A DNA stretch of 64,000 nucleotides. Origin: Bacteriovorax sp. Seq25_V (GTDB lineage: Bacteria; Bdellovibrionota; Bacteriovoracia; Bacteriovoracales; Bacteriovoracaceae). Each line of letters opens with the position of its first letter. Position 1 is the stretch's first letter. This document shows, in pieces, positions 17,156 to 23,285 of this stretch. The position numbers and the translations under genes were made by a program. The stretch is taken from positions 248,001 to 312,000 of the forward strand of contig NZ_AUNI01000020.1 of the NCBI RefSeq assembly GCF_000447795.1, in the 5' to 3' direction. The notes under the pieces were generated by a model. It saw only the letters and a program-made list of their open reading frames with translations, ran no database searches and was not told where the DNA came from.

Positions 17156-17521
17156 TTATATCGCTAGAAGCTGACTGATCTTATCGGAAAGATCGTCTTC
17201 GTTTTCGATAATTTCATTAAAATCACTGCGAGAGAGAAAACAAATATCACTGCCTGGCATAATAACTGCAGAATAGTTTACCGGTTGGTTATTAAGGAGT
17301 TCTTTAACTCCTAACAGACATCCAGAGCCGATAGTTTTTTTGATCTTTTTATTTTTTGTGAGATGAATATTTCCTGAGATAACAAGGTATGCAACAACTG
17401 GGATTTGACCTTCGTAAAAGAGATTTGAGGTCGCGGTGTAGGTGATGTGTTCACCGCGTTCTCTTAGTTGATGTAATGTGTTGTCTTCAATGTCAAATGT
17501 CATAACTGTATCTAGTTTCAT
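17156..17521 (-). CDS. Stand-alone cyclic-nucleotide-binding-like (Crp effector) domain
   Basis: The 121-residue protein is only a cupin-like Crp/Fnr effector domain, from IEDNTLHQLRERGEH through VISGNIHLTKNKK to IGSGCLLGVKELL and CFLSRSDFNEII. There is no helix-turn-helix, although the neighbouring FNR-like regulator has one. The phosphate-binding cassette is not conserved, so true cAMP binding is doubtful. It lies between the fnr-like gene and the cbb3 operon on the same strand. It could be a decoy, heterodimer partner or independent sensor; these are guesses. Confidence 0.72.
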   Translation of the reverse strand: MKLDTVMTFDIEDNTLHQLRERGEHITYTATSNLFYEGQIPVVAYLVISGNIHLTKNKKIKKTIGSGCLLGVKELLNNQPVNYSAVIMPGSDICFLSRSDFNEIIENEDDLSDKISQLLAI

Positions 17522-18435: not shown

Positions 18436-21400
18436 TTAATTGATAATAACAGAGCCGACCCGATAACCTTTCTCATTTATTAAGATATCTTGGTTAAGCT
18501 GGAATATCGAATCTTTAAGCTTTTGAGCTATATTACTGCGTTGTTTCTCTGTCAGTTTTTCAGGATTTTTAAATCCTATAAGAAGATCAATAGGGGCATC
18601 CCCAAGTTTGGCCGGCATGGATGTGGCCAGGGTGATTTCCTTGAGCATTTCCGGTGGAATGTCCCCATCGCTAAGGCCTCTGAGCGATTTACGCAGGCGC
18701 TTTTCAACCATCTCCCCATGGGCCGCAATTTTAAGTCTAAGCTCTTTTGGAGTGTTATCTGGAATGAAGCTCATACGGTACTGAGAAGGGTTGTCCTGCT
18801 TTGAAAATGATTTGATAATGTCTCTTTGATCATCTTTTGTCAGAGTTTCTTTGATCGTAACAGCGCAATCATCACCACTACATATAACATCGTGTGAGAT
18901 GCCTTTTCGTTGAAGATCTTCACGAACAGTAAGTTCGAAATTCTTTTTTATACTATTGAAGTTCTCTGTTACTTCTCGTTCGCCATTTCGAATTGCCTTT
19001 ATGGTGTCCTCTAAATTCATATTCTGTGCTTTTGAAGATGCAACATCTTTAGCAATTTGAAAAATATTCTGCGAGCCCATTCCTGTGACATCTCCAGTAA
19101 ACCCTCCAAGAGTTGCATTATCAAGATGAGCAATCTCACGCTTAGGTACCCAAAGACCTGGAGTGAGACCATTGAGTTCCTGTATATAACTTAGAAAGTC
19201 TCTTGTCTCTCCGGTTGTTAGATTTAGACCATACTCTTTCTTAATGGTTTGTGTTAGTTTCATCATCTCAATGTCGTTAATTTGTGGGTCGTACTTCCTT
19301 AAAGTATCGATAAGTTCTGGTGAGATCGTTTTTTGATTCTTATCTAAAGTGACGAAATAGGGTGAGTCTTTAAATTTTTTGTTTGAAGATAATTGAAATT
19401 GAAATTTTTTTAGATTATCAACTTGTTCAGTTAACATCAGTCTTAAATCACTATATTTGACTAGCTCACTGTCTCGGATACTGTCACTTCTTAAAAAACT
19501 GCGAGATTTTTTTGATGCTAGCCCGGCCTGATCTGCTGTATCTGCAATTGCCCCTGAAAACCAATTTTGAGGCTGCTCTTTATTATCAAATAATCCGATG
19601 GCATTTATTTGTGAAGCAAACTCTTCATTACTTTCTTTGTAAACTTTTCCAAGCTCGGTTTCTAACTTTGTCCTAAGCTCTAGAGGCATTTCTTTTGGCA
19701 GAAATGCAAAACGAAGAGATTTAAAATCACTGTAGACTTCGAAGTCTACATCAGGGTAGTTAGCCAGAAGCCTTTTCATTTTTTGCATCATGATATCTTT
19801 GTGCAAATTTGTAAGTGATGTGACGGCTTCTTTATTTCCATAGGTATCGTTAAGTCTTTTTAGTGCAGAGTTTTCTACGTCAAGAAAAAAAGCTGCGTCT
19901 CCATCTTTTGCCGTATCAATCCAACGTTGGTTTAATCTTGGTGAAGTCAAGATGAAATGCGCGTACTCATGTTCAAGTTGCTTAGCCGTTTTTAATTTGG
20001 GTACATTATATTGAGAGACTTTTTTAAGTTTCGCTTTTTGATAGTTATCGACAATAGCGATCGAGGAATCATCAATGTCATGGCGCGATTGCTTGAGACC
20101 CTTGGCCCCGTATTTAATTCCTTTTCCTACAAATTCTCCTCCAATAGCGAGTGGGGCAAGAACCAAGTTTAAAGTAAAATCTTCTTCTCTATCTAGCAGT
20201 GACTGAGAAGAATTAAGACCTGCAAGAAAGTTAGTTTCCTCTGATGAAACTCTATTGGCCGAGATTGCTAAGTTTGCGGCCTCCATTGTCAGTCCTATTC
20301 CAATAGCGCAACCAAGACCAGCTGTGAGACCACAAATTCCACCACCAATTAGTGCCGTTCCAATCAGTGCCATATCGGTTTTGATTTCATCAAATGCTAA
20401 GTCGTCACGATAGCCTTGGGCCACATCACAAAGAAATTTCGGTGGACCCATTCTTTCAAGATAATTTTCTACTATGAGTGAATTAGAAAATACTTCATAA
20501 AGGTTGTTACTTCTTAATGAATTAAGCTTTTGCTTTGCCGATTGAACTTGTGCAAGACTTTCTTTTAAAGCAGTTTGTAACTCTTTTGAAATAACTTCAT
20601 CTCTTTCTTCTCCGGAAAGATTGAGCTGTGAAAGTAGTGGCATTCTATCTAGACGCTTGAGGTATTGGTCTTCAAACTTCTCTTTGAGTTTTTTGTTTTC
20701 AGACTTAACGTGATTGTTTAATTGATTCTTCATATGATTAGAGCATGAGTGGCCGCGTAACGTTTTTTCGCTCTCTTTGATATAGTAAGTACCACTAGCA
20801 TCCTGCTCGATGCACTTAATACGTGATGCCCCTTTCTGCATCCATTCTTGCTCAGATCTAAAATTTAAAAATTCTTTAGCTTCATTAAAAACTTTTCTCT
20901 CTTGACTCGTGAGAGTAGGAATATTAGTGTCTCCAACAAGATGCTCTATTTTTTCTTTTCCCGTCGCAAGTGCAAGTTCTTGTCTCATCTTAATGAGATT
21001 TGATTTCGTGTTAGAAAGTAGATCTTCTGTAATTTGAGAGCACTTTGCATGAGATGATAAATTTTTAAGACAATTGATGATCAGTTGTGTTGCTTTTTCT
21101 TGTTCATTTAAAGTCGCAAGAGATGCTTCTTTAATTTCTTTCAATACATTACTCTTGTAGAGCTTTATATTTATTTCGTATAAGTTTTTTCCGAGTTGAT
21201 TGAGGTCTTCCTCTTCTAGGATCTCGCCATCAACACATTTGATGAAGTAATCTTCATTATCCTCGTTATTATATTTTTGACAGGCCTTATACTGATATTC
21301 TTCATTTGATCTGACGATATGGGCGTTTCGATATTTTTCTCTGCTTTTTGTCTCACTTCTTGTTCCTGCATAAACAATTGTGTTAATACTTATGACTATA

Positions 21401-21441
21401 AGCAGTAGGCAAGTAGGAATAAGGAAAACGAACTTTCTCAT
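18436..21441 (-). CDS. Large secreted protein with degenerate GGDEF-like segments
   Basis: The 1001-residue protein has a signal peptide (about residues 1-25), a Lys/Glu-rich helical region to about 330 and a Gly/Ala hydrophobic stretch near 355-390 (GGGICGLTAGLGCAIGIG). Two parts recall diguanylate cyclase folds with altered active sites. The first is FFLDVENSALKRLNDTYGN near 515-535 with EVYSDFKSLRFAF near 575. The second is GDVTGMGSQN near 785 with CSGDDCAVTI near 857. An HEYAH motif near 490 also fits a zincin pattern but could be chance. Export makes cyclic-di-GMP synthesis unlikely. I do not recognise a named family; the fold suggestion is tentative. Confidence 0.7.
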   Translation of the reverse strand: MRKFVFLIPTCLLLIVISINTIVYAGTRSETKSREKYRNAHIVRSNEEYQYKACQKYNNEDNEDYFIKCVDGEILEEEDLNQLGKNLYEINIKLYKSNVLKEIKEASLATLNEQEKATQLIINCLKNLSSHAKCSQITEDLLSNTKSNLIKMRQELALATGKEKIEHLVGDTNIPTLTSQERKVFNEAKEFLNFRSEQEWMQKGASRIKCIEQDASGTYYIKESEKTLRGHSCSNHMKNQLNNHVKSENKKLKEKFEDQYLKRLDRMPLLSQLNLSGEERDEVISKELQTALKESLAQVQSAKQKLNSLRSNNLYEVFSNSLIVENYLERMGPPKFLCDVAQGYRDDLAFDEIKTDMALIGTALIGGGICGLTAGLGCAIGIGLTMEAANLAISANRVSSEETNFLAGLNSSQSLLDREEDFTLNLVLAPLAIGGEFVGKGIKYGAKGLKQSRHDIDDSSIAIVDNYQKAKLKKVSQYNVPKLKTAKQLEHEYAHFILTSPRLNQRWIDTAKDGDAAFFLDVENSALKRLNDTYGNKEAVTSLTNLHKDIMMQKMKRLLANYPDVDFEVYSDFKSLRFAFLPKEMPLELRTKLETELGKVYKESNEEFASQINAIGLFDNKEQPQNWFSGAIADTADQAGLASKKSRSFLRSDSIRDSELVKYSDLRLMLTEQVDNLKKFQFQLSSNKKFKDSPYFVTLDKNQKTISPELIDTLRKYDPQINDIEMMKLTQTIKKEYGLNLTTGETRDFLSYIQELNGLTPGLWVPKREIAHLDNATLGGFTGDVTGMGSQNIFQIAKDVASSKAQNMNLEDTIKAIRNGEREVTENFNSIKKNFELTVREDLQRKGISHDVICSGDDCAVTIKETLTKDDQRDIIKSFSKQDNPSQYRMSFIPDNTPKELRLKIAAHGEMVEKRLRKSLRGLSDGDIPPEMLKEITLATSMPAKLGDAPIDLLIGFKNPEKLTEKQRSNIAQKLKDSIFQLNQDILINEKGYRVGSVIIN

Positions 21442-21563: not shown

Positions 21564-23285
21564 ATGACCAAAGACAGTAAAACAAAGTTGCCAACGGCAC
21601 CAAGTAGTTCAACTAATGTGATCGATCTCGTTTTAAAAGAGTCCAGGGCCTACACTTCGATGGAGCTAATCGAATCTTATATTGGAGAAGAGAAGTCTCT
21701 AGCAAATATTCCTATTCAACCTCTTTATGTTTCTCTACGTTCATTGCCGATTGAATTAAAGTGTCACGCACTTTCTTTAATGACTAAGGAGCAGAGGGAA
21801 GTTGTTTACGATCTTGATCTATGGAAGAAAGACGAGATTGATGTTAACGAATTTCAAAACTGGGTACGAGTAGCTGCACTTTCTCCTGATGATAAAATTC
21901 GTTTTGAATTTGCTCATGGGGTTGAGTTTGCATTATTTATAAAAGGAAAGTTTAATATTTGGACATTCGATGCGGAAGATCCTGAATATCCTGATCATGA
22001 TTATTACTTCTTAACTGAAGATAACCTGCTTCTTTTTGAATATGATGAAACATGTGACATCGTGGATGAAACAAAGACCCTTATTCGTGAACTGTATTAT
22101 GAACTAGGGGTAGAGAAGGCATATCAATATCTTTTCACAATTGTTTCTGATGGTTTTATGTCTCTTTCAGAGCAAGAGTATTCACAGAAAAAAGGTCGTC
22201 TTAGTGATTTTGGTTTCGTAGATTACTTCGACGCACTTGAAGTTCTATCTCCGTTACCGTCTGTATCTCACATTGATCTCTTTATTAATAAGAAAGAAGC
22301 TCTTACAGGCGAAATTGACAATATTGGAAGACTTCAAACTCTTCATCAGAACTCACTAGTCGCATTTGAGCAAGATCACGTAAGAATCTCAGAGGAGCTA
22401 GCTAAGGTTAGTGAAGAGAAGAGATTTCATTTTCTTCACTTTAATTTCATTCGACTGATAAATTCTAATCTTGAATTTCATGGACTTTTAAAAGATAGTC
22501 CAATTGCAATGACAAGAGTAGGAAAGGCGACTCGAAATCTTGTTAATCTGGGTATTAACTATATTCGCGGAACAAGAGAGTTTGGCGAAACTAGTGTTTT
22601 TGATGTTTTTGATTTTGTTGATGTTCATCGCGTGGGTCTCTCTCTCATTAGTGTTGTCCAAAAAAGATTAAAGAAGCATTTGCGATTAACTAATCTAGAT
22701 GACTCAGATGAAAAATTTTTAGGGAATTATTTTGAAACTTTTCTTGATGACCTTTTTGCAATTGAAGCAAAATATAAAGGTGTGTCTGAACAGTCTGATG
22801 CTATCACTGAAAAGTCTCAGTGGGAAAAAGTAAATAGGGATGCAAATCTTCTTGTTTCACTTCTTCCTTTTATGAAGAGTTTTAAAGAAGCATTTGAGGC
22901 CCTGAGTAGTGAAGGACGACTATCAAATTCTTATTACCTTAATTACGATATCGATAGTATTGATTTTGAAGCGCTAATTCTTTCAAGTTTTGTGAATTTC
23001 TCTCTTGATAAATTCAAGAAAGAAGAGACTCAAAAGATGGGAGTTACTGTGACAGAGCTCAAATCATTTTATGGAAGATTCCTAGGGGAGTCTGTTAGCG
23101 ATGATTTGTTACAGGCCAAAATTTCGGCCTTTATTCAGGCCTTTGGATTAGCTGAGATTAATGAAGTTGATAAGTACATACTAATACTGATCAATGAACA
23201 TTTAGGTGGGTACAACCTCGAGGAACTTGAGGAATCTGAATTCAAGCATGTCGGTGGCCCTATTATTTTCAATACTTTATCCTAG
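21564..23285 (+). CDS. DUF6178 family protein
   Basis: The 573-residue soluble protein matches my recollection of DUF6178. The pattern is a run such as YVSLRSLPIELKCHALSLM, then REVVYDLDLWKKDEID and an acidic first third, followed by long helical regions with LSPLPSVSHIDLF. The function is unknown. The start has AAGGA seven bases upstream. It stands alone, divergent from the large secreted protein, and its stop codon is inside a strong terminator hairpin. Confidence 0.72.
   Translation: MTKDSKTKLPTAPSSSTNVIDLVLKESRAYTSMELIESYIGEEKSLANIPIQPLYVSLRSLPIELKCHALSLMTKEQREVVYDLDLWKKDEIDVNEFQNWVRVAALSPDDKIRFEFAHGVEFALFIKGKFNIWTFDAEDPEYPDHDYYFLTEDNLLLFEYDETCDIVDETKTLIRELYYELGVEKAYQYLFTIVSDGFMSLSEQEYSQKKGRLSDFGFVDYFDALEVLSPLPSVSHIDLFINKKEALTGEIDNIGRLQTLHQNSLVAFEQDHVRISEELAKVSEEKRFHFLHFNFIRLINSNLEFHGLLKDSPIAMTRVGKATRNLVNLGINYIRGTREFGETSVFDVFDFVDVHRVGLSLISVVQKRLKKHLRLTNLDDSDEKFLGNYFETFLDDLFAIEAKYKGVSEQSDAITEKSQWEKVNRDANLLVSLLPFMKSFKEAFEALSSEGRLSNSYYLNYDIDSIDFEALILSSFVNFSLDKFKKEETQKMGVTVTELKSFYGRFLGESVSDDLLQAKISAFIQAFGLAEINEVDKYILILINEHLGGYNLEELEESEFKHVGGPIIFNTLS

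Follow-up and report, generated by a model that had tools for sequence, protein, structure and literature searches.

The 1001-aa protein encoded at positions 18436-21441 of the window (the whole 64,000-nt stretch of DNA analysed) is unannotated and apparently secreted. At its core there appear to be two folds of the nucleotide-cyclase kind, whose putative active site is strictly conserved. The open reading frame, on the minus strand with an ATG start, is real, and its features are given in Table 1. Its family forms a new branch, so far unannotated, of the palm superfamily that includes GGDEF, Cas10 and mCpol, set apart by its tandem arrangement, its hairpin signature and its apparent compartment.

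No Pfam or NCBIfam model matches the protein, even at E 10, and the PF00990 profile matches neither it nor 42 relatives. For the family as a whole, including its long and fused members, Pfam, NCBIfam, PHROGs and PADLOC give no convincing match. Family profiles retrieved no credible match in a PDB sequence search, and a viral fold library yielded nothing convincing. Phages, plasmids and viral contigs contain no match to the family, nor did a single-sequence scan of genome contigs identify one. The genome carrying the gene (3.45 Mb, 21 contigs) includes one copy of it together with two canonical GGDEF proteins; the paralogs that the sequence-only reading proposed to look for are absent from this genome, although relatives are common across the phylum.

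Table 1. Features of the two-palm gene and its product (window coordinates; aa, residues of the protein)
Feature	Position	Strand	Description
Whole gene	18436..21441	(-)	1001 aa, ATG start, single copy in this genome
Signal-like N-terminus	21364..21441	(-)	aa 1-26; MRK, hydrophobic core, VYAG; from sequence and family statistics
N-module	20092..21363	(-)	aa 27-450; predicted all-helical; occurs alone in some relatives
Gly-rich hydrophobic helical hairpin (predicted)	20224..20439	(-)	aa 335-406, core 355-390, LIGGGICGLTAGLGCAIGIG
C-module, conserved two-palm core	18439..19989	(-)	aa 485-1001
Half 1, GGDEF fold (predicted)	19444..19959	(-)	aa 495-666; Z 13.1, rmsd 3.1, 141 residues
LDVENSALKRLND block	19846..19884	(-)	aa 520-532; N531 invariant, corresponding to the Asn that recognises the base in GGDEF
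YSDFKSLR in place of the GGDEF hairpin	19711..19734	(-)	aa 570-577; Y570, D572, K574 about 98-99% conserved
Linker between halves, mostly helical	19117..19443	(-)	aa 667-775; predicted model
Half 2, palm-like order	18667..19116	(-)	aa 776-925; DSSP of predicted model
D784...N792, putative metal Asp and +8 Asn	19066..19092	(-)	D784 85/85; N792 80/85; spacing 8 in 85/85
CSGDDC hairpin	18865..18882	(-)	aa 854-859; GDD invariant, paired Cys clamp
Half 2 C-terminal helix	18682..18747	(-)	aa 899-920; E910, E913, K914, R917

The C-module was modelled with AlphaFold from 21 sequences (mean pLDDT 92, pTM 0.89). Its first half matches the GGDEF domain of YfiN (4iob; VIA Z 13.1, rmsd 3.1 over 141 residues), and dozens more GGDEF structures align to it at Z 11-13. 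The full-length model gives the same GGDEF match, and in it mCpol (9mnr) also aligns to half 1, at Z 10.8 over 113 residues. As modelled, half 1 almost certainly adopts a GGDEF fold, a conclusion carried by the structural match. At the sequence level (hhalign), half 1 compared with GGDEF beats 98 of 100 column-shuffled profiles, which is only suggestive; the local pairing places LDVENSALKRLND with LDLDHFKKLND of GGDEF. Its GGDEF-like blocks are LDVENSALKRLNDTYGN (aa 520-536) and YSDFKSLRFAF (aa 570-580), the latter including a near-invariant YxDxK (Y570 and D572 each 97.6%, 82/84). N531 is kept in 84/84 sequences, while position 523 is an acid (E523) in 69/83 and Gln in 9/83. Half 1 is probably a non-catalytic partner, because the GGDEF hairpin has been lost for YxDxK and Gln sometimes occupies position 523.

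Half 2 exhibits in the model the same DSSP order as half 1 (strand-helix-helix-strand-strand-helix-strand-helix), with D784 on the first strand, SGDD in a two-strand hairpin and a helix carrying E910, K914 and R917 at the end. Its blocks are GDVTGMGSQN (aa 783-792) and CSGDDCAVTI (aa 854-863). Compared with GGDEF by hhalign it gives no signal in one comparison and in another beats 93 of 100 column shuffles, a marginal result in which SGDD is locally paired with GGEEF. From element order and motif placement, half 2 is very probably a palm. It is not to be considered degenerate, since it has a fixed signature of its own composed of the invariant D784, the GDD and the charged helix.

The sequence-only reading had recognised GGDEF-like blocks in both segments and the loss of the GGDEF motif itself. 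Both observations stand: the blocks are conserved in 85 relatives and GG[DE]EF occurs in neither half (YSDFKS in half 1, SGDD in half 2). The name "GGDEF protein" is unsuitable because both the profile and the motif tests fail. The description of the two folds in the sequence-only reading as degenerate and catalytically changed suits half 1, where the hairpin has given way to YxDxK, but not half 2, where D784 and GDD are invariant. Of the two regions in which that reading expected a palm, residues 490-600 are predicted to form a GGDEF fold whereas 770-870 show palm-like element order only.

Conservation was assessed over 85 C-modules with a median pairwise identity of 25%. N531, K574, D784, G856, D857, D858, R889, E910 and K914 are each conserved in at least 98% of them, the value being 99-100% for all of these except K574; the median frequency of the top residue per column in the same alignment is 31%. 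The acidic residue and the Asn are separated by 8 residues (acid-x7-Asn) in every half 1 (83/83) as in every half 2, a spacing also observed in GGDEF domains of the same phylum (D39-N47). Half 2 carries the putative metal Asp on the first strand and the Asn eight residues further on (D784, N792), as GGDEF domains do. These alignments exclude chance as the reason why the motifs are conserved.

The N-terminus, MRKFVFLIPTCLLLIVISINTIVYAG, is signal-like. Hydropathy was compared between members with a complete N-terminus and background ORFs of the same loci: a strongly hydrophobic N-terminal segment is found in 70/76 members and in 216/473 other ORFs (46%; p=1e-15). Moreover, 27 short members are composed of the signal segment and the C-module only, with no other hydrophobic segment, and in 25 of these 27 the N side is the more positive. 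Cys is scarce in C-modules, at 0.22% compared with 1.12% in neighbours predicted to be cytoplasmic (p=3e-27) and with 0.75% in GGDEF domains of the canonical type; 47% of C-modules have none. The Cys pair flanking xGDD is complete in 33 sequences and otherwise wholly absent, a single Cys never being observed, as expected of a disulfide. These statistics place the C-module, with high probability, outside the cytoplasm, in keeping with the export proposed from the sequence. They argue against the usual membrane-sensor layout with a cytoplasmic GGDEF domain: the cytoplasmic catalytic module of membrane-sensor diguanylate cyclases is not what they indicate here. A phrase search of the literature for extracellular or periplasmic GGDEF domains found none. 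B. bacteriovorus secretes proteins via Sec and encodes type I and type II systems (PMC12622784).

The N-module includes six invariant Cys residues (54, 69, 134, 338, 370 and 378) and a nearly invariant Cys124. The Gly-rich hydrophobic stretch at 355-390, suspected from the sequence of inserting into membranes, is indeed membrane-like, and members of the full-length clade keep it as GGGxCxxTxGxGC with its two Cys. It is predicted, at lower model confidence, as a helical hairpin (335-373 and 376-406), and its insertion into a membrane is plausible.

A search of the order identified relatives in 48/129 genomes and revealed that the N-module (aa ~1-450) and the C-module (aa ~485-1001) are separable. 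The C-module profile matches 120/369 Bdellovibrionota genomes and 64/182 genera, mostly with one copy per genome. Many genomes encode C-module proteins devoid of the N-module, and members outside the full-length clade carry other N-terminal parts or none. Matches among named records are restricted to Bacteriovorax, Halobacteriovorax, Bdellovibrio and Oligoflexia-type records, as scanned with narrow peptide patterns that leave absence elsewhere unproven; these patterns derive from a 15-row alignment, the 42-row alignment being too diverse to provide any. One genome (G061: L082, L197, L205 and contig C81) contains several divergent C-module copies, two of them as adjoining ORFs, against a single copy elsewhere. 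At another locus (L104:1612-8868), the C-module lies in the middle (aa 1444-1950) of a 2418-aa ORF that has neither a signal-like N-terminus nor Cys, shows hydrophobic segments near 2102 and 2235, and contains no Pfam domain. The N-module alone forms exported proteins of ~503-583 aa with the conserved Cys at four loci (L052, L063, L067 and L072), and the C-module profile has no match in the four corresponding genomes. These N-module-only proteins are a second unnamed family.

A member located at 1238960-1241359 (G132:C1) carries YSDFKSSR and CSGDDC in a genome which is probably that of B. bacteriovorus HD100. In this genome dnaK lies ~8.4 kb before the family gene; dnaK of B. bacteriovorus HD100 is Bd1298 (PMC2797640). 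Literature searches by guessed locus tags for the HD100 homologue returned nothing about Bdellovibrio.

Around the family loci, no gene for a partner, receptor or effector is conserved throughout. Close relatives share the gene order of the window, with a cbb3 oxidase, a P-type ATPase (both named by eye from sequence), Usp and an FNR-type regulator on one side and DUF6178 on the other. The DUF6178 gene (21564-23285, plus strand) is divergently transcribed and occurs in eight examined loci, all of close relatives. On the other side, the gene at 17156-17521 (minus strand) encodes a 121-aa protein consisting only of a cyclic-nucleotide-binding domain (PF00027); it adjoins the cbb3 oxidase genes and the gene of the FNR-type regulator, a member of the CRP family, in an order common to close relatives. 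A functional link to the FNR/cbb3 cluster was considered and rejected, the arrangement being common to close relatives only. Genes resembling SUF Fe-S assembly components (cysteine desulfurase and ABC ATPase, named by eye) lie near the C-module gene in seven to ten genomes of several genera (L046, L058, L061, L064, L065, L070, L075, L076 and L093). The shared neighbourhoods of the family gene look like inherited positions.

The protein would leave the cell by the Sec route, and its helical, Cys-rich N-module with the Gly-rich hairpin would tether it to, or insert it into, a membrane. The C-module would then constitute a pseudo-heterodimer of two GGDEF/Cas10-class palms in one chain, in which half 2 would provide the metal-binding Asp784 and the SGDD hairpin, with K914 and R917 holding the triphosphate, and half 1, its own catalysis lost, would contribute N531 and the YSDFKS hairpin to a shared pocket. 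By analogy, a composite two-palm organisation like that of Cas10 or of mCpol dimers is the best reading, and a composite site is proposed because the layout fits the shared-pocket scheme of mCpol and Csm1. In these enzymes two palms share the pocket, the triphosphate being held on one protomer and the base on its neighbour, and Ser/Asn select adenine/guanine (PMC12657218). The activity would most likely be metal-dependent nucleotidyl transfer on NTPs, leading to a cyclic nucleotide (mono-, di- or oligo-) or to a related compound; residue conservation of catalytic grade despite a median identity of 25% speaks for it. For invasive relatives, the site of action might be the prey periplasm or the prey cytoplasm, where NTPs are present. 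We put at about even the chances that the protein is an exported nucleotidyltransferase acting outside the producing cell. Against this reading stand the serious problem of how NTPs would be supplied there, the known cytoplasmic location of GGDEF-class enzymes, the lack of any family-model match or conserved neighbouring partner, and the marginal sequence similarity to GGDEF.

The same exported two-palm fold might instead be a binder, capturing nucleotides or nucleic acids in a metal-dependent manner (for scavenging, sensing or sequestering them in prey) without forming a product. The missing GGDEF hairpin of half 1 and the lack of a neighbouring partner to read a product are consistent with this, and metal-NTP binding by itself could account for the invariant residues; however, D784, D857 and D858 are kept in 83-85 sequences, stricter than binding usually needs, and we consider a pure binder unlikely, if a serious possibility. 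Another palm chemistry is rather unlikely: a template-free or tRNA/oligonucleotide nucleotidyltransferase of the Thg1 type, or a hydrolase turning prey NTPs into products for uptake by the predator. Thg1 (3wbz, 3wc1) is among the top Foldseek matches, together with mCpol, Cas10 and soluble adenylyl cyclase, and SGDD is reminiscent of polymerase palms, with weak RdRP_3 matches in 3 members (best E 0.07). Such matches are weak, though, and none is better than GGDEF or mCpol.

Two further alternatives concern the architecture itself. That half 2 resembles GGDEF by coincidence, being a different alpha/beta domain next to the GGDEF fold of half 1, would agree with the hhalign result for half 2 (p about 0.05; 7/100 shuffles equal) and with the absence of any signal when the two halves are compared with each other by the same program. 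The identical DSSP order, the first-strand Asp, the +8 Asn, the GDD in the hairpin and the Lys/Arg of the last helix nevertheless make coincidence distinctly improbable. An N-terminal anchor, a periplasmic sensor, a second TM segment and a cytoplasmic output form a common GGDEF architecture, and the window protein does have two hydrophobic segments that flank a Cys-rich region, so that 357-390 could be read as a second TM helix between a periplasmic N-module and a cytoplasmic C-module. This arrangement is very improbable in view of the 27 relatives that lack a second TM, the Cys depletion of the C-module, the both-or-none Cys pair of CxGDDC and the prediction of the hydrophobic stretch as a hairpin broken at 374-375.

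Returning to the exported nucleotidyltransferase, a predatory role is not implied because the family occurs in genomes without a known lifestyle. It is conceivable, although improbable, that Bdellovibrio-like predators export the two-palm cyclase across or into the prey membrane by means of the hydrophobic helical module, where it would convert prey NTPs into a signal nucleotide or drain the pool. If true, this would represent interbacterial second-messenger warfare by a GGDEF/Cas10-class enzyme inside the invaded cell. If exported, the family would be a concrete candidate, open to testing, for the handling of prey nucleotides by Bdellovibrio-like bacteria, and the relative in the apparent B. 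bacteriovorus HD100 genome makes knock-out and enzyme tests feasible. Such machinery normally operates inside cells only. The palms of GGDEF, Cas10 and mCpol are treated as cytoplasmic signalling enzymes, and an exported tandem family would bring the superfamily into a new compartment.

Among known systems, GGDEF domains (PF00990; YfiN, PleD, Bdellovibrio DgcB 6hbz) share with the protein the fold of half 1, the LKxLND block with its invariant Asn at acid+8 and a SxGxA...ADxAxxxxK-like end of half 1. They differ from it by their Pfam match and GG[DE]EF motif, whereas the two-palm protein very probably has two palms per chain and an extracytoplasmic location. Soluble adenylyl cyclase (tandem class III C1-C2, 5iv4) is a pseudo-heterodimer of two related catalytic folds, as proposed for the C-module, but it is cytoplasmic, superposes with an rmsd of about 22 A, and its class III cyclase model does not match the two-palm protein. 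Cas10/Csm1 (6ifr, 8s9u_C) combines two palms in one chain with a helical joint and a GDD hairpin in the second palm, an arrangement that the protein would share; where Cas10 has GGDD, half 2 carries SGDD with an invariant GDD. Foldseek aligns Cas10 across both halves with an rmsd of about 19-22 A, and with values near 20 A the both-half matches to Cas10 and soluble adenylyl cyclase show order only. Unlike Cas10, the protein appears to be exported, has no HD domain and no Pfam or convincing PADLOC match, and its loci have no CRISPR genes nearby or conserved cas-like neighbours. mCpol/OptS of Panoptes is a single-domain cytoplasmic defence enzyme with a neighbouring effector; here a two-palm module is found with no conserved linked gene. 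It nevertheless resembles half 1 in being a palm with an altered GGDEF hairpin, and its pocket is composite between two palms, as proposed for the two-palm protein. If the latter works, it would by analogy do so in the manner of the composite palm pairs of Cas10 or mCpol type.
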